Shown here in pieces: positions 21,507 through 64,000 of a stretch of DNA of 64,000 nt. Below the pieces are notes generated by a model that was not told the origin of the DNA, searched no databases, and worked only from the letters and a program-made list of their open reading frames with translations. Origin of the DNA: Cladocopium goreaui (taxonomy: Eukaryota > Sar > Dinophyceae > Suessiales > Symbiodiniaceae); NCBI GenBank assembly GCA_947184155.2, contig CAMXCT020002643.1, positions 1 through 64,000 on the forward strand, in the 5' to 3' direction. How positions within the stretch are numbered: position 1 is the stretch's first letter; each line of letters opens with the position of its first letter. The position numbers were made by a program, and so were the translations under genes.

Positions 21507-21544
21507 GGTGAAAAAAAGGTGCCCAGTGAATTCGCTTAAGGGCC

Positions 21545-23215
21545 ATGGCATCGGCACAGCTTGAACACTCAAACCTGGTCCAGCATCAAGTCGGCCTCAT
21601 GGAGCAGTTTCGCGAATTTTGGATGGAAAACCATCTCTGTGACGTTGTGCTGAAGAGCAATGATGGTGCAGAGCACAGTGCCCACGCTGCTGTGCTATCG
21701 GCCGCCAGCACTTTTTTCAAAAAGTTGCTTGGCGGATCCTTTGTGGAAGCAAACCAGGTACAACGGGGACAGCCAGTGGAAATCACTGCTTCTAATGCAG
21801 CTGTATCTGCTTTGCTTGACTATATCTATGGAGGGCAGCCAGAGGTGAATTTAGATGTTGGTCTTGAACTCCTACGACTGGCGGAAGCCTACGGCTTGCC
21901 AAAGTTAGCAGGTGCGATTGAAACAGGTTTCCGTTTGTCACTGGACAGCAATTCTGCCCTGCAGGTCTTACTAGAAGCACCCGGCTTGTATGCTTTCAAG
22001 GCTGCATGTGAAGAGAAGGTTGCTGCAGATTTTGAGGCTTGCAGCCAACACCCAAAGTTTGGGGAGCTGAGTGCCAGTCAGCTGACCCGTATTTTGAAAC
22101 GAGAAGATTTGGGTGTGTCTCGAGAGGAGACGGTGTTGAAGACCATATTTCAGTGGCTCAGAGTCTCTCAGGACAGGAATGGTTTGTTGGGAATGCTGTT
22201 GCAACTGGTGGATTTCCAATCAATTTCAGTTGAGAATTTGCTCCGGCTTGGCCGCATGAAGCAATCCGGTCCAAACGCGGACGAACTACACAGAGAAGTT
22301 GATGAAGCTTTGCGAATTCGGCAACGAAAGAGAACCCAAAGTCCACAGAACTTTCAACCAAAGAGGCGTTGTTTGCGACATTGGACACCAGATTTGGGTG
22401 CCAGCTCCGAAGCTTTGGGACGAGAAGTGCTTCCTAGACCATGTTTCTCCTTGAGATGGCACGAAGGTTCCATTTATGCCATGGACTTCGACGGTAACAT
22501 CCTGTGTTGGAAGCCAGGTGACTCATCTGCACGACGAGTTGTGGGTGAAGGCGCCAGAGTGAATGGAATCAATGGCCTGGAGCGCGGTCCTGAATTTAGC
22601 ATGGCCATTTCGCCAACCGGGGAGATTTTTGTCTCGGATTACGACAACAGGAGGTTGCTTAGTTTTCACAACGGCTCTGGACGGATAGTGCTTGGCGATG
22701 TCAATTGTGGGCGCCTGTTTTGCTCGCAAAGTGGAGTGCTTTATATGCTGGGCAATGGGGAAGTTGTGCAGAAGTTGGTGGGTTCTACACTTCAGACAGT
22801 GATTGGCCGCGAGAGTCTTCCAGCTGACTTCTGCTGGGCCATCGACATGTTTGTCACCAAGGAAGAGGTGATATACCTCTTGGATTATGAGGAGAATCGC
22901 ATTCTGCGCATCAATCCAGCTGAGTCCCTGAAAGCTGTTGTGGTGGGACAAACCGAGCACGACTCAAACCTCCAGAACCTGTTTGTAACTGAAGGCGGGA
23001 CAATCTATGTGTCTGATTGGGCCATTCAGAAGGTGCTGGCCTTCCGTCCAGGGTACACAGGCTCCACTGAAGTCTTGCATTTTCCGGGGACGTGGCACCC
23101 AAACGAAGTTCTGGTTCAGGGCAGGTCGCTGTTTGTGAGCATTGAGGACGATGACCAAGGCGTGAAGGGCATCTATGAATATGTGCTGCCTCCAGAGCTT
23201 AACCTTGAGTAAACA
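21545..23215 (+). CDS. BTB-BACK protein with C-terminal NHL-like beta-propeller
   Basis: An uninterrupted 555-codon frame, the only long intact gene of the window. Residues 31-128 form a BTB/POZ domain (LCDVVLKSNDG, AHAAVLSAASTFFKKLL). Residues about 133-250 fit the BACK domain, including an LTRILKREDL-like helix and a late IFQWL. A basic linker follows (RKRTQSPQNFQPKRR, 261-275), possibly a nuclear signal. Residues about 300-548 contain repeated blades such as SPTGEIFVSDYDNRRLLSF (356-374) and GGTIYVSDWAIQKVLAF, typical of NHL-type six-bladed propellers. BTB-BACK proteins with a C-terminal propeller usually serve as Cul3 ubiquitin-ligase substrate adaptors (family knowledge); the substrate here is unknown. 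Lack of introns beside a ten-exon neighbour suggests a retroposed origin. The first ATG is chosen because it lies just after a good acceptor and directly before the domain. Confidence 0.88.
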
Positions 23216-30849: not shown

Positions 30850-31765
30850 GCACCATATATATATAGTAAATTATAATATGATATATATACATATATATAT
30901 ACATATATATTTGTATGTGCATACATATATACATATATATATATAGTAAATTATAATATGATGTATATATATATAATTGTATGTGCATACATATATACAT
31001 ATATATATATAGTAAATTATAATATGATATGCATATATATATATATATTTGTATGTGCATACATATATACATATATATATAGTAAATTATAATATGATAT
31101 ATACATATATATATGTATGTGCATACATATTTACATATATATATATAGTAAATTATAATATGATATATACATATATATATATATATTTGTATGTGCATAC
31201 ATATATACATATATATATAGTAAATTATAATATGATATATACATATATATATGTATGTGCATAGATATATACATATATATATAGTAAATTATAATATGAT
31301 ATATACATATATATATATGTATTTGTATGTGCATACATATATACATATATATATAGTAAATTATAATATGATATATACATATATATATGTATGTGCATAC
31401 ATATGTACATATATATAGTAGATTATAATATGATATGTACATATATATATATGTATGTGCATACATATATACATATATATATAGTAAATTATAATATGAT
31501 ATATACATATATATATATATGTATGTGCATACATATATACATATATATATAGTAAATTATAATATGATATATACATATATATATATGTATGTGCATACAT
31601 ATATACATATATATATAGTAAATTATAATATGATATGTACATATATATATATATATATATGTATGTGCATACATATATACATATATATATAGTAAATTAT
31701 AATATGATATATACATATATATATATATATATGTATTTGTATGTGCATATATATATATAGTATTA
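30850..31765. repeat. TA-rich minisatellite, about 13 copies of 65-80 bp
   Basis: Each unit contains AGTAAATTATAATATGATAT followed by ATACATATATATATGTATGT and GCATACATATATACATATAT. Unit length varies through the TA runs. All six frames have long open stretches (Tyr/Ile/His) that are not genes. Confidence 0.92.
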
Positions 31766-36354: not shown

Positions 36355-36499
36355 TATATATATACATATATATGGGTAAATTATAACGACCTCACTGCGA
36401 CCTCACTGGAAATCATGGTTAGTAAGGGAAATCATCCCCAAATGGCCTTAATTCAGGTTAGTGAAATATTATAATTTACCCATATATATATACATATAT
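36355..36499. mobile_element. Inverted-repeat element (TATATGGGTAAATTATAA ends)
   Basis: ATATATATGGGTAAATTATA at the left and TATAATTTACCCATATATAT at the right are perfect inverted copies. The core ACGACCTCACTGCGACCTCA and GGAAATCATGGTTAGTAAGG recurs at 56806-56915. The right end stops 5 bases before the C-run of the bacterial-gene unit. Confidence 0.75.
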
Positions 36500-36640
36500 G
36501 GTAGCCCCCCCCTGAGATCCACCTCAAAGCCTCTTGTATCATATCCTTCAAGACACACACACACATAGATAATATAAACCCTGTTCATTATCTTGGTATA
36601 TCTGAAAGCTTGTCATATGTAGAGAATGACAATAACCCCA

Positions 36641-36925
36641 AAACATCAAAACCAAAAACCAGAAAACCAAAACTTTGAAGAAACTGTTTGGTTTAGCCTC
36701 AAAAGATTGTTTTTTTGGTTTTACTTGTGTTTTTGTGGTTTTTGGTGATTTTCTCCAACCATAAACCTTCAAAAAACAAAACACACACGAGTTTTTTTTT
36801 TGGTTGTTGCATTTCAAAACCAAAAAAGACAAAAAAAAACACAATTTGAAAAAAAAAAAACCTTTTGAGGCTAAACCAAAAAGTTTCTTCAAAGTTTTGT
36901 TTTTTTGGTTTTTTGGTTTTGTGTT
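36641..36925. repeat. Foldback element with A/T-rich arms
   Basis: AAAACTTTGAAGAAACTGTT and TTGGTTTAGCCTCAAAAG on the left arm (about 36668-36705) are repeated inverted as CTTTTGAGGCTAAACCAAAA and GTTTCTTCAAAGTTTTG at about 36862-36900. The interior consists of TTTGGTTTT/AAAACCAAAA tracts. The 114-codon minus frame across it is an artefact. Confidence 0.7.
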
Positions 36926-36997
36926 TGCTTTGGTCCTTTAATCCATGTACATGACCTGAAGCTTTCTACTTAAGCACTCTTTTTTGTCCTTGTCTTG

Positions 36998-37028
36998 CAC
37001 GAGCTATGGCTCGCATTCCTCGTGCATG
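36998..37028. repeat. Short hairpin at the edge of the bacterial segment
   Basis: GCACGAG and CTCGTGC form a 7-bp stem with a further GAG/CTC inside. It lies immediately before the first recognisable TatD codons. Confidence 0.5.
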
Positions 37029-37367
37029 AATAAACAAGTTAAAGCATCAATGCATTGTTTTTCTTCTGGAAAAGATTTAGCAAAAGCGGCTTTAGATCTA
37101 TGTTTTTACATTTCTCTATCTGGTATCGTAACTTTTAAGAATGCTAAATTACTTCAAGAAATAGTACAGTATTTGCCAATTGATAGAATTTTAGTTGAAA
37201 CAGGCCTTTTAGAGGAAAGCAAAACACTCCAGCAAAAGTTGTTTATGTAGCACAAAAAATAGCAGATCTAAAAAAAAATATCTTACGATTTTGTAGTAGA
37301 AAGCACTACAAACAACTTTTTACATTTATTTGATAATGAATTACGAAGGCAATTTTCTTGTAATTAA
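37026..37367 (+). pseudogene. tatD: TatD-family DNase, C-terminal half only, broken
   Basis: The plus frame reads KASMHCFSSGKDLAKAALDL and then FYISLSGIVTFKNAKLLQEI and YLPIDRILVET, which is the conserved C-terminal half of TatD metal-dependent hydrolases, including the HCF histidine. The family continues ET-DSPYLAPVP-RGK; here the sequence jumps from ET to the PFRGKQNTPAKVVYVAQKI segment, so about 25 bases with the DSPY aspartate are deleted and the frame shifts. A second shift in the A-run near 37272 leads to SYDFVVESTTNNFLHLFDN and a TAA at 37365. The N-terminal half with the first HxH metal site is missing. AT-rich codon use is unlike the BTB gene. The bacterial, Rickettsiales-like origin is inferred from composition and wording; the family assignment is secure. 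Confidence 0.85.
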
Positions 37368-37880
37368 TTCACTATATTTTTTGGATATTTATTATTTACA
37401 TGGTGCAAAGCTTATGTTTTATGCAAGTTGATTAAGGAATTGTTTTTTAATAGTTGCTGTTTATGTAGCTATTGGTATTTGTGTATATTCTTTAAAATAA
37501 ATATTGCCATAATTTAATGGATGCTAATCTTATTTTAATTAGTAGCTGTAGTTTTGTTTGAAATTTACATTGATTGTTAAGGCATAGTTTTTAAAAACCT
37601 TTAGTATGCTCTGTTATTTAGCTTTATGTTTAGACTGCAAACTGTTTTTATATAAGATAACAAGTTAGGCTGTATAAGATTAACAAGGTTTGTAACATTT
37701 GAAGTGTGCATATTAATTTATAGTGTAATAATCATATGAACAAACTAACGAGAAAAATCGAAATAATGAACAGTGTATTAAATTTAAATTATGTTTTAAG
37801 CTGTTGTTAGATGTGCAAATAATTGTATTTACACTAAAAAAATAATTACATTTTATCAATTTTATGCAAAATGTTAATAC
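37368..37880. other. AT-rich spacer between the tatD and miaA relics
   Basis: About 510 bases of very AT-rich sequence. Short open pieces exist but no recognisable protein; probably bacterial intergenic DNA or a decayed gene. Confidence 0.45.
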
Positions 37881-37967
37881 TATTATTTTATTTGCGGCCC
37901 TACCTGCACTGGTAAATCTAGTTTTGCTATTAATTTATCGAAAGAATTTACTGGTGTTATAATAAAT

Positions 37968-38017
37968 AGTGATGCTATGCAAGTTTATAAATAGTGATGC
38001 TATGCAAGTTTATAAAG
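37968..38017. repeat. 25-bp tandem duplication inside miaA
   Basis: ATAGTGATGCTATGCAAGTT with five flanking bases occurs twice head to tail. The 25-base step creates a stop and a frameshift directly after the MQVYK codons. Confidence 0.9.
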
Positions 38018-38225
38018 GTTTAGATCACATTACTTCTAGTCCTAGCAGCATTCAAAAATATATTACACCTCATTTATTACATATTTATGTAGATATAGAA
38101 GATAAATATGATGTTGTAAGGTATGTTACTGATGTAAAAAAGATATTAATAATTTTAGCAATTTAGGAAAAACAAATAATTATAGTTGGAGGAAGTATTT
38201 TTTTATATACATTCTTTATTATATA

Positions 38226-38885
38226 GCATAGATTACCCGGCGGATGGGAAACCGCGCGAGCGTTTTGATTGTTTGCTTCCAGGAGAGTCACAATCACCTG
38301 TAATTTACAATATAAAATGCTCTTCCGAACTCTTTGGATAACTGAATTTTGGTTTAAAAAAGTGGATGCAAAATCTATTGATTTTTGACAAATCCAGGTA
38401 AACATCATGTGCATCAGACGTGGATGCTCAGATTTTTTTTAACACTCTTCGTCGGCTCAGCGATCCATCACTGTGGAAGCTGTCTTCGACAGCAAGTTGC
38501 CATTATGGCACTCATAACGCCACTGCCAGCAACGCAGGTATAGCATGACATCTCAGCAGCGTAGCAACATGTCACGTAGTAAGCGATCCCAGAGATCTTA
38601 GCAACATGGCAATATATCATGTACGAAGTAGAAGGAACGTTAGGATGCCCCCCCACCCCACCCAACCCCAACCCCAACCCACACCAGAGATCTCAGCAGC
38701 GTAGCAACATGTCGCGTAGTAAGCGATCCCAGAGATCTTAGCAACATGGCAATATATCCTGTACGAAGTACAAGGAACGTTAACATGCCCCCCCACCCCA
38801 CCCCACCCCAACCCCAAGACAAAGAGCAATACTCAAAAAAGAAGCAAATCGCACGTACGGTTTTCCAGCCGTAGGCATAGATTAC
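38226..38885. mobile_element. 638-bp MULE-like element inserted in miaA, with 11-bp target duplication
   Basis: GCATAGATTAC stands at 38226-38236 and again at 38875-38885. The enclosed DNA begins CCGGCGGATGGGAAACCG and ends CGGTTTTCCAGCCGTAG, an imperfect inverted repeat of about 26 bp (roughly 19 matches). Its GC content is far above the surrounding miaA DNA. Reading one copy of the duplication across the gap gives an uninterrupted SLLYSIDYMPHISCATKEHV segment. A 9-11-bp duplication suits Mutator-like elements (inference). Inside, a unit of about 145 bp (38548 to about 38815) is duplicated, each ending in C-rich CCCCCCCACCCCACCC. Confidence 0.82.
38548..38820. repeat. Internal tandem duplication with C-rich ends
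   Basis: The block from CTCAGCAGCGTAGCAACATG to AAGGAACGTTA and the following C-rich run occurs twice with few differences. The C-runs give G-quadruplex potential on the minus strand. Confidence 0.8.
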
Positions 38886-39539
38886 ATGCCACACATATCT
38901 TGTGCAACCAAAGAGCATGTTAGTAATTTAGGAACAAACAACAGGTATCAAAGCTTTGTATGATATATTAACAAGAGAAGATTAAAAAAAAACATATTGA
39001 CGAGTATAAGATATTTTCTAAAGATAGATATAGAATACTAAGAGCCTACAGTGTTTTGCATGAGACAGGAAAATCCATATATAACATCTTATTTTAACAG
39101 ATGTTAGTTTGTTTAATAAATATTTTATGTTATATGTAATCCAGATAAAGAAATTTTATATAAAAAGTGTAATAAGCGCTGCTCTTATTTAATGAATGAA
39201 GCAGGTATTAAAGAAGTAAAAATAAAACAAAATAATTTAGAAGAAAATTTTGCAAATAAGATTATAGGTGTAACAGAATTATTAGGGCTTACTAATATGG
39301 ATACTTCTTACTTAGATGCTGTGGAAAAAGCCACGCAGCGTACAAGAAATTATGCTAAAAGACAATTAACATGGTTGAGAACATATTTTAGCAATAATAA
39401 TGTGTATTTAACAGCAGACTATACACAAATAAAAATGCAACAGTTATGTAAAACATTACCTTGTTTATTTTGAATTTTATTTACATTTATGCAATTTAAG
39501 GATTCTTGTTTGATTTAGCTGATAGTAGTTTTATATAGT

Positions 39540-39722
39540 TTGTTTTTACAAAGGCTATTTAAATATATTCTAGAAAACAAATTAAGTTATCTGATGATTT
39601 TATTGTATATAAACTTATTTTTCTTTGATCGTGAAAAGTTTTTATCAAAAGATATTTTTTTAGTGAACTTATGTACAGAATACTTTTTCCATCTAGATGT
39701 ATATGCTGTATGGGCTTTATAA
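39540..39722 (+). other. 60-codon AT-rich ORF after miaA, unknown
   Basis: Reads MFLQRLFKYILENKLSYLMI and then hydrophobic and Lys/Asp-rich segments to VYAVWAL. It has the same AT-rich composition as the bacterial genes and lies within the unit. I do not recognise the family; it may be a fragment of a third bacterial gene. Confidence 0.35.
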
Positions 39723-39817
39723 ATAGTTTTGGTAGTTTTTGCTCTACATGCTGAAACTCATTGCAAACAGCTTCAAAAGTGGATCTCAGGGGGGGGCGAA
39801 TATATATATATATATAT

Positions 39818-39909
39818 CCCTATGGATCCAAACACCTCCTGAAAAGGCACTTAACCCCCCAAATCATGCCCCAAACACTTCCTAAGAAGGTACTTGGATC
39901 CATAGGGTA
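39818..39909. repeat. Inverted repeat with CCCTATGGATCCAA arms
   Basis: CCCTATGGATCCAAACACCT at the left and GGTACTTGGATCCATAGGG at the right form a hairpin-like element next to a TA microsatellite, just outside the bacterial-gene unit. Confidence 0.65.
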
Positions 39910-40093
39910 TATATATACACAGTCCATATGATCACATCCAATAAATTCCGCCAGGGTTTCGCACAGGTGATGTGCCTTTTATGGGGTTTCTTAACTATAA
40001 TAGATATGGGGATATACTTTATAAATGAAGGAATTATCACATTCCATGGCTGACTTCCGGCTGCTGATTGTTTTCTCTGCGTAAACGGCCGAG

Positions 40094-44502: not shown

Positions 44503-44784
44503 AACATGTTCGCTGCAAACCCTAGGTGTGCCCGCGGCGAATCCCGCATATCCTTTGACATGCTCAAATCCGTGCGTAGGGTTTAAGTTTTTTACTTTCG
44601 AAAACAACAAACCCTAAAACCCTAAAACCTAAAACCCTAAATCCTGAAAACTTATAAAGTGAAAATCACTGCGTATAGCCAGTGTTTTCATTCATCCTCT
44701 GATGATAAGTATATCATAGTATATCATATTGTTTGGATGTGTTGTTTGAGTGTGGGCGAATCCGGGGTTTGGAGGGAACATGTT
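44503..44784 (+). mobile_element. 282-bp element with telomere-like core, copy 1
   Basis: Starts AACATGTTCGCTGCAAACCC and ends with the near-complement GGGTTTGGAGGGAACATGTT (18 of 20). The middle holds AAACCCTAAAACCCTAAAAC, resembling the CCCTAAA telomere repeat used by dinoflagellates and plants. An inverted copy is at 49633-49905. Confidence 0.75.
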
Positions 44785-49632: not shown

Positions 49633-49905
49633 AACATGTTGGCACCAAACCCCACGTTCACCCACACCCAAAGAACACACCCAAATGATATCATATACTT
49701 GTCATCAGAGAATGAATGAAATCAGTGGCTGTACGCAGCGATTTTGACTTTAGGTTTTTAGGATTTAGGGTTTTAGGGTTTTTTGGGTTTTTGGGCTTTA
49801 GGTTTTGGAAAGTAGAAAAATGCTAGCCCTACGCAGGGATTTGAGCATGTCAAAGTATATGCGGGATCCGGTGCGGGCACACGTGGGGTTTGCAGCGAAC
49901 ATGTT
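49633..49905 (-). mobile_element. 273-bp element with telomere-like core, inverted copy 2
   Basis: Starts AACATGTTGGCACCAAACCC and ends GGGGTTTGCAGCGAACATGT. The core TTTAGGGTTTTAGGGTTTTT is the TTTAGGG sense. Flank words GGCTGTACGCAGCGATTTTG and CTACGCAGGGATTTGAGCAT correspond to the reverse complement of copy 1. Confidence 0.75.
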
Positions 49906-61713: not shown

Positions 61714-62114
61714 GAGAACTGTTTGGTAACCACGGGGTCTTGGGTAGCACGCCATTTCCGCGAAATGAGGTGACCGGTTGTTTTTTTTGTTTCTGGTGGA
61801 AACCATAGTTCAACAATCTTCAACATAGTTCTCATGTGCCATCATTGCAGAATGTTGCAAAAATATTGCCACGTTTCATTGAGTTGGAAGTGAACGCGCC
61901 CAACTTCACAAAATTTTGGGTAGAATACGGTACAATCACAGAATTTCACCGGATTTCATTGTGAACTTTGGCAATGCAGGGCCTTCTGAACAGTGCCTGG
62001 ACCAAGGCTGTGATGTTCATCGACCTCACGGCAGAGTTGTCCTTGCACCAACTGGCGGTACCTGGGACAGATGGCTTGTGCGCTGACCAAATGCATCGTT
62101 TCGACGTCTACAAT

Positions 62115-63560
62115 TTTAAAGAGACTATATAATACTATATATATATGTAATATGATATGATATAATAGAATATAACGTAATATAACAAAATACAATATTA
62201 AATCAGATTATATTATATCATTTAATAGTTTACTCTATAACATAATATTAAATTGTATAATGAAAATGTTATTTCATGTAATATTTTTTATTTTTCATAT
62301 AATATTTCAGATAAAACAAGAGCTCATATAATTTAATATTTAATATAATATATAATGCAATTTAATATAATAGTATAAAAAATATTATATCAATTAATAT
62401 GTAATATAATATAATTGAATATTTTATATAATAGATATTTTAAACAAATATATAGTTAATATATAATAGTATTGTGTATTATATGTGTTTATTACTTTCT
62501 ACTTTTCTTTTTTTGTATAATATTATTTTTATTCTCTTATAATATATTACTTTCTATTTTGTTATGCTTTTGTTATAAGATAATAGAATATATCAAAATA
62601 TAATATATTAAAATATATTTGTTTAATACTACATATAGTAGCTTAATATAGCCTAATTAAATATATGATATATAAAATATAATATTTGATTTGATCTTGT
62701 ATGTAGTTTAAAAATATGATTTAAGATAATATATAGTTTTAAAATTTATCATATCATATCATATAATTTGATAGATAGTGTATTACAATATAGTTTGATA
62801 TCATATCATATAGTACCAGTTAATTAAGCATATAACTTGATATAATTATTCTAATTTAGTATTTAATTTAATTTAATACTATAGATATATATATATTATC
62901 TATGTATTATCACAAAAATGCATATATATATATATATATATAGCATTTTTACAAAATATATCATATAAAATATATAATTTTCAATATTTAATATTTAATA
63001 TGTTTGATAATATATATAATATAATATATAAGATATAAGATATATTTATGTACTAAGAAATGATTTATAATATGTAGTATTATATATATATAGTTAATAA
63101 ATAATATAAAATATATAATATAATATAATATAAGATTTTTATATATATAATGAATATTTTTAATATATAATTTATAATTTGCTTATTTTTTAAATATTTT
63201 TATATATAATATATTTTTTATTTTTTATTTATTATATATATAGTATATTATATTTAATATATTATATATTGTATTTAATATAACATATAATATATAATAT
63301 ATATATATAATTTATTATATACAATATATCATATTTAATCTTTAATTTATAATATATAATACTTAGCATTTAATATTGCTCATTTCATTTAAAATATATC
63401 ATATACAATATAATTCAATATGTATACATAATAATAGTAGATATAGACATAGAACTATATTTTTATTATATGTACATATTTTATATTATACATATGTAGT
63501 TAAATAAGATCTTTGTTAGTACAACCAATAAACAAGATCGATATTGCTATTTATGATGTG
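62115..63560. repeat. 1.4-kb extremely AT-rich block
   Basis: Almost only A and T, composed of irregular TAATATAATATATAAT, ATATTTAATATT and AATTTAATAT words with no fixed period. No ORF of note and no rRNA or tRNA-like sequence is visible. GC-richer coding-like DNA resumes at about 63600. Confidence 0.85.
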
Positions 63561-63601
63561 ATCTATTGACGAAAATCTATATATCAATATCTAATTACAG
63601 C

Positions 63602-63776
63602 ACATCTAAAAAACAAGTTGTAGCAATCCAATTCATCCTGGTCGCTGACCCAGGCCAGAAGAGCTCCTTGGCAGCGCTGATTTTTTGGGGGTCGGGTTCA
63701 AGGGATCCGCGCATCGTCGATGGATTCATGCTGGTGGAGTTCTCCTTATTCCCTGCCCTTTTTGTTTCGATGATTT
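63602..63776 (+). CDS. Candidate exon with hydrophobic segments, ends at a stop
   Basis: After an AATTACAG acceptor the frame reads KKQVVAIQFILVADPGQKSS, LAALIFWGSGSRDPRIVDGF and MLVEFSLFPALFVSMI before TAG at 63777. GC content rises sharply. It may be the last exon of a membrane protein gene. Not recognised. Confidence 0.38.
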
Positions 63777-63812
63777 AGACATATTCCTTATGAAATGGCC
63801 ATAAATTGGAGA

Positions 63813-63870
63813 TACCCTTTGGTAACCAAACATGGCTATCTGGTAAATCGACTCCAAATGGATGTTTGAA
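63813..63870. mobile_element. CCCTCTGG element, partial
   Basis: TACCCTTTGGTAACCAAACA with ATGGCTATCTGGTAAATCG; the right half is not recognisable. Confidence 0.5.
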
Positions 63871-64000
63871 TCAGGAAAACATCGGAGTTTGGTTGGGGAT
63901 GTTGGGGATGTTGGGTAGTTTAACAGTTTTAGTAGTGATTTCTTTCCAGAAGTGGGATTTTCTACTCAAAGTGGATCAAAAAGGAGTTATTTAGAGATTG

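Follow-up and report, generated by a model that had tools for sequence, protein, structure and literature searches.

A repeated, transposon-like element carrying relics of bacterial tatD and miaA in the dinoflagellate Cladocopium goreaui

A stretch of 64,000 nucleotides from contig C2643 of Cladocopium goreaui (here called the window) holds broken remnants of the bacterial genes tatD and miaA, which raises the question of how bacterial DNA came to lie in a dinoflagellate nuclear contig. A sequence-only reading of the window had proposed a transfer from an endosymbiont to the nucleus. A simple one-off insertion was not supported: the remnants belong to a repeated element with inverted ends, which is present at four loci and has relatives containing other bacterial genes. 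A single endosymbiont insertion was therefore rejected, since the copies at the four loci share their ends. We conclude that, very probably, a non-autonomous eukaryotic nuclear DNA transposon family took up several AT-rich, Rickettsiales-like genome fragments and multiplied some of them. Observed directly were the shared ends, the unrelated flanks, three clear cargo classes (two of them multicopy), and a miaA lesion that predates the amplification.

The tatD-miaA element and its copies

Profile searches with Pfam and NCBIfam established that the bacterial tatD and miaA relics noticed in the sequence-only reading are real and that both genes are broken. The TatD match covered positions 36984-37247 of the window (PF01026, E=2.5e-16; TIGR00010, E=7.8e-19), and alignment of the copies described below showed that the frame is interrupted by a 22-bp deletion. 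MiaA was recovered as three pieces of the TIGR00174 profile (288 positions), at 37890-37991 (profile positions 4-37, E=5.6e-10), 37969-38163 (26-80, E=1.9e-8), and 39192-39470 (217-283, E=3.8e-10). In a six-frame genome search, its C-terminal part corresponded to positions 153-242 of the PF01715 profile (E=6.3e-13). A 25-bp tandem duplication, frame changes, and an inserted repeat of 640 bp disrupt miaA, and no intact reading frame is left. Thus, both genes are dead and form a cargo without protein function, and it is the element itself that persists. The AT-rich setting of the relics was likewise confirmed: the GC content of the 1-kb bins at 37-38 and 39-40 kb was 0.27 and 0.29, compared to 0.39 in the middle bin, which bears the insert, and to 0.38-0.50 across most of the window.

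The element exceeds the relic block that was originally flagged. Its inverted arms (36484-36522 and 39779-39817) comprise 39 nt including TA tracts and are 90% complementary; the left terminus is (TA)n-GGTACCCCCCCTGAGATCCAC and the right terminus is GCTAGCCCCCCTGAGATCCAC (inverted). The left module contains an A/T-rich fold-back at 36641-36926, with arms at 36641-36716 and 36851-36926. Host-type repeats had been described beside the relics; in part, these are the ends of the element. The features are as follows.

36500-39798, plus strand: whole transposon-like element with bacterial cargo, 3.3 kb; both ends recur on contigs C1528 and C6041, the right end also on C4749
36500-36522, plus strand: left terminal inverted repeat, adjoining (TA)n, from the inverted-repeat arms
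36500-37030, plus strand: left host-type module, recurring on C1528, C6041, C231, and C227, and with its first ~370 bp on C5799
37029-37345, plus strand: bacterial tatD relic, C-terminal half only (PF01026 and alignment of copies)
37890-38236, plus strand: bacterial miaA relic, 5' part, with the P-loop GPTCTGKS, in two frames (TIGR00174)
37962-38016, plus strand: 25-bp tandem duplication within miaA, common to all four copies
38236-38879, plus strand: younger inverted-repeat element, 640 bp, within the miaA relic, with a target duplication of 9-11 bp
38886-39473, plus strand: bacterial miaA relic, 3' part, from DRYRILRA to the C-terminus (TIGR00174, PF01715)
39747-39798, plus strand: right host-type module, which includes the right terminal inverted repeat (28-mer found at 14 genomic sites, control 0)
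36374-36481, unstranded: small inverted-repeat element that shares the left (TA)n tract with the main element
39818-39907, unstranded: small inverted-repeat element that shares the right (TA)n tract with the main element

When the genome was searched for MiaA (8 of 8 candidates scored), seven matches were obtained, namely, one intact gene on contig C1 and six AT-rich pieces, all of which were confined to four element loci: the window, C1528, C4749, and C6041. The AT-rich copies were 84-92% identical to the window at the DNA level over the matched pieces. For the window, C1528, and C6041, the alignments start together (36484-36488), and at all four loci they stop at 39815-39818; the flanking sequences show no relation to each other, and the ends are embedded in (TA)n tracts or adjoin them. 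Both ends were visible at three of the four loci, while on C4749 the contig start truncates the copy, which retains only a short stretch before miaA and everything from there to the right end. When the C1528 copy, which lacks the insert, was used as the query (15 of 15 candidates scored), only these four loci contained the block, and the right ~50 bp occurred by itself at nine more.

Could these junctions have been created by the assembly, with bacterial reads joined to host contigs? The assembly that holds the window (1.166 Gb in 6202 contigs) does seem to contain bacterial DNA: contig C1 (7.38 Mb), of which a 3.7-kb piece has 62% GC and the intact miaA, probably represents a bacterial chromosome from a co-culture or a contamination. 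However, the relics have a GC content of about 25%, and contamination from the GC-rich C1 was rejected on composition. Furthermore, the same junctions recur on separate contigs that have diverged from each other by 6-15% (in the miaA, intergenic, and downstream parts) and contain decayed frames. The truncation of tatD is common to the three loci that hold this gene, and a truncated TatD was also present in protein clusters P0004 to P0007 (139-152 aa, 82-93% identical), which come from other sources (JGI, ENA). P0004 to P0006 begin with MNKQFKAL, which equals the junction in the window, and P0004 lies on contigs of up to 1.17 Mb. A comparison of P0004 to viral contigs, in a collection that may omit this genome and its close neighbors, revealed no relative. 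The presence of the same truncated protein in other sources disfavors an artifact of a single assembly, and because the junctions recur on separate, diverged contigs, we consider a chimera or contamination extremely unlikely. The relics were confirmed to lie within a eukaryotic contig, since the assembly has the size given above and the window contains a gene with BTB and BACK domains in an open frame of 560 aa (21530-23209); of the ten frames scanned, this one is the most obvious host gene.

The shared lesions also indicate an order of events. Since the 25-bp duplication is common to all four loci, miaA was dead before the amplification. The 640-bp insert, by contrast, is absent at the corresponding place in the other three tatD-miaA loci. 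It belongs to a family with the ends CCCGGCGGATGGGAAACC ... GGTTTTCCAGCCGTAGG, which was detected, with 40 of 554 candidates scored, on at least ~35 other contigs, the best pieces having 79-98% identity; its target duplication resembles CATAnACA, with boundaries derived from eight copies. As read from the aligned copies, the succession is the miaA lesion, then the amplification, then the younger 640-bp insertion.

The TatD block (36930-37350) was 94-97% identical between copies, compared to 85-94% for the rest of the cargo. This similarity, together with open frames of 142 aa in P0004 and of 114 aa in C1528, would be expected if the truncated TatD had been co-opted by the element or the host and were under selection. 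Yet the frame has suffered deletions, of 22 bp in the window and of ~37 bp in C6041, and changes scored by eye strike conserved residues, such as the glycine of SGIVTF and the leucine of RILVETD. Moreover, the host-type left end is equally similar between copies (0.93-0.98). Judged from the kind of changes, selection on this block is very unlikely.

Relatives of the element with other bacterial genes

To find relatives, we searched the whole genome for the right terminus as a 28-mer and the left terminus as a 29-mer, each with up to three mismatches; the reversed pattern served as the control for the right terminus. The right terminus was found at 14 sites and the left terminus at 11 sites, with 0 control matches in both cases. 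Altogether, this yielded 16 loci representing 15 distinct sites, because the assembly contains one site twice, as C3619 and C2710 (99.7% identity over 3 kb, including the flanks). Bacterial cargo was detected at 13 of the 16 loci, at two of them by weak matches. At nine loci (C2643, C1528, C6041, C2846, C231, C2710, C3619, C5799, and C3546), both ends were present, properly oriented and separated by 1.3-6.2 kb. Inward from the right end, the first 400 bp had a GC content of 0.23-0.30 at 11 of the 14 right-end sites, and these are the sites with bacterial genes.

The cargoes fall into different classes. In addition to tatD-miaA (four loci, with only the miaA part at C4749), six loci (C231, C2710, C3619, C5958, C6190, and C2846) contain an RMD1/DUF155 gene facing the 3' part of rpsA, which encodes ribosomal protein S1; E values were 3.3e-15 for DUF155 in C231 and 5.6e-7 for rpsA in C5958, and at C6190 the rpsA side alone was observed. 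Distinct RMD1-rpsA copies diverge by 7-16%. At C3546, the C-terminus of FabH faces RNase HII (E=5e-17 and 8e-12). Weaker matches were found at two loci with a left end only: C227 has RbfA followed by TruB (E=0.0019, 0.0028, and 0.00024, the RbfA halves being in order), and C121 has a CNNM-like protein (E=7.7e-5). Comparison of the C231 element from end to end showed that its left module of ~500 bp is 74% identical to that of the window and 83% identical to that of C1528, and that its right module of ~55 bp is that of the window element, although the cargo differs (DUF155 and rpsA). The left junctions differ between the tatD and rpsA classes.

Of the nine DUF155 matches in the genome (13 of 13 candidates scored), five lie in element loci. 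Another, on C6196, belongs to a decayed relative that has kept part of the left module, with neither terminus in the 3 kb examined. The remaining three, on C1779 and C1968, are short and resemble host-gene exons. As a separate observation, protein P0124 (317 aa, from a 2-kb ENA contig) contains an RMD1 fragment that has 80% identity to the cargo, joined to an extra tail, which we take to resemble a Ulp1-type protease domain; it is perhaps another broken copy elsewhere.

These relatives bear on two further explanations. According to the first, bacterial DNA was inserted into the nuclear genome once, and ordinary segmental duplication then produced the further copies. Four similar copies would fit this, and so would the site shared by C3619 and C2710, which is nearly identical beyond the element. 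With the exception of that site, however, only short repeats are common to the right flanks when the 14 right-end loci are compared. The boundaries of the copies coincide with the same pair of inverted repeats in (TA)n, and in the relatives other bacterial genes lie between these ends. We therefore regard segmental duplication as very improbable. According to the second, the ends themselves are bacterial, and an insertion sequence or composite transposon entered the nucleus together with its cargo. Bacterial DNA does lie directly beside the right end at 11 of the 14 loci. Against this, C5799 is a member of 1.34 kb that has the same ends, an interior of ~0.9 kb with mostly 0.38-0.58 GC, and no bacterial gene noticed therein. 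The (TA)n setting, moreover, is that of the two small inverted-repeat elements beside the main element, and region 36900-40000 had no match among 50,697 phage records. Bacterial ends are thus improbable, if somewhat less so than segmental duplication, and we retain the reading that a eukaryotic transposon family took up the bacterial fragments.

The putative donor of the cargo

The sequence-only reading had pointed to a Rickettsiales-like source, and the TatD phylogeny agreed with this. The tree comprised 103 rows (80 loci, 21 chosen proteins, and two element rows) and 257 columns. The 21 proteins were picked from 120 of 5618 hits, and the element was represented by C1528 and by cluster P0004 rather than by the window copy; these two rows fill 42-43% of the columns. 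Both grouped in a 16-row clade (support 95/85) with L098, L117, L121, and P0079. The first three are rows from metagenome-assembled genomes (MAGs) labeled Rickettsia typhi (Rickettsiaceae), labels that are doubtful, and P0079 is named Rickettsiales. This clade is nested in a 26-row clade (96/91), the named members of which are mostly alphaproteobacterial, with the addition of two Marinimicrobia.

A search with the C-terminal piece of MiaA returned three distant matches (46-54% identical over part of the piece), and the best bacterial-looking full-length relatives of RMD1 were ~44-55% identical. DUF155 was absent from all 14 control genomes and present in three of the 15 chosen bacterial genomes, namely, the Rickettsiaceae-labeled G002, Legionella (G011), and the alphaproteobacterial MAG G008. 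Because of this patchy distribution, DUF155 alone does not point to Rickettsiales. In summary, one gene (TatD) and the base composition support a putative donor that is Rickettsiales-like.

Proposed capture of bacterial DNA and comparison to known systems

Most likely, the element is Pack-TYPE-like and has captured several pieces of an AT-rich alphaproteobacterial genome. Like the plant Pack-TYPE transposons in the main text of PMC8903248, it is non-autonomous and multicopy, has terminal inverted repeats, and contains coding DNA and variable interiors between conserved ends. The plant elements described there carry host chromosomal genes, while the cargo here is bacterial, and in that main text the strings "bacteri" and "protist" do not occur (0 occurrences each). 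The C. goreaui element has an inverted repeat at each end, is present at several unrelated sites, and encloses different coding DNA in members with shared ends; this cargo, being bacterial, does not derive from the host's own chromosomal genes.

Several observations weigh against this account. Neither a transposase nor an autonomous partner was found, some of the frames of the elements having been scanned with Pfam. The insertions lie within (TA)n, where any target duplication is invisible. At 5 of the 14 right-end loci there was no left end within three mismatches, C4749, which is cut by the contig, being among them. At C5799, C1169, and C924, where the GC content inside the right end is 0.36-0.41, no bacterial gene was noticed by eye. 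The ends at C3546 are 5.4 kb apart, and the part read there is mostly host-like DNA; the RbfA, TruB, and CNNM matches are all under the curated cut-offs. As to the donor, the order tatD-miaA was absent from the flanks of 80 bacterial tatD loci, several of which have short flanks, and two of the three Rickettsiaceae-labeled genomes (G001 and G003) lack DUF155, while Legionella has it. Finally, the right host module starts at the identical base in three unrelated cargo classes, which fits poorly with independent random captures.

Movement of the element could depend on a transposase supplied in trans. For the capture, two routes may be considered. In the Pack-TYPE model, as set out for plants in PMC8903248, the DNA between two neighboring insertions is remobilized as one element; here, such insertions would have flanked bacterial DNA that was already in the nucleus. 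Alternatively, the cargo may have been acquired by faulty gap repair on symbiont DNA. Neither route simply explains the data, since the right module starts at the same base in the three cargo classes. In C5799, the motif of the right module is repeated subterminally several times, and this repeat might be a capture hot spot.

The element may also prefer AT-rich bacterial DNA: if it targets (TA)n, AT-rich bacterial DNA in the nucleus could be hit often. It is conceivable, though we propose it only tentatively, that a (TA)n-targeting family acts as a recurrent capture vehicle for AT-rich endosymbiont DNA, which is rich in its target, and spreads the fragments. If true, capture by transposons would be a general route from bacterium to nucleus in protists. 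The element itself offers a concrete vehicle for bacterial DNA in nuclear genomes, with defined ends, several cargoes, unrelated sites, and an order of events. It also cautions that bacterial relics may be numerous and scattered in a nuclear genome without each having arrived by a transfer of its own, and its terminal sequences can be used to seek both the donor and the transposase.

In outline, bacterial DNA in eukaryotic transposons is known, and the present element is a distinct variant. Endosymbiont genes have reportedly been found as nuclear inserts in tsetse, with Wolbachia as the source; the cargo described here is similar in being made of endosymbiont genes in a nuclear genome, but here an element with defined ends encloses the pieces. 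Mavericks are large elements that replicate themselves. In three Curculio weevils, 93-97% of the Rickettsia-derived inserts lie in Mavericks, as stated in a preprint of July 2026 (PMC13419823), and among the best-ranked literature matches this was the closest precedent found. Common to both systems, as far as the weevil inserts are characterized there, is Rickettsia or Rickettsiales DNA in nuclear DNA transposons that was amplified and is mostly decaying (PMC13419823). Unlike the insect Mavericks of that preprint, the elements found here are 1.3-6.2 kb long and have short inverted repeats and exact, repeatedly shared ends. In the subset of frames scanned, there was no Maverick/Polinton DNA polymerase or integrase. 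Helitrons of Pleurotus, as reported in PMC4289320, hold bacterial-type domains and thus are also eukaryotic DNA transposons with bacterial-type sequence. Terminal inverted repeats are present in our element, in contrast to Helitrons, which lack them. Among the best-ranked matches of the literature search, there was no report of short inverted-repeat elements with bacterial cargo.

In the 64-kb window as a whole, a spliced-leader pattern had 0 matches, and tRNA and Rfam scans were without a match. A tandem array of 0.9 kb with an AT-rich unit of 66/136 bp occupies positions 30854-31759. Positions 62001-64000 are AT-rich (0.18-0.24 GC), with CpG at 0.92 of the expectation compared to 0.63 for the whole window. 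TTTAGGG-like repeats form short interstitial arrays at 49749-49806 and 44609-44651.

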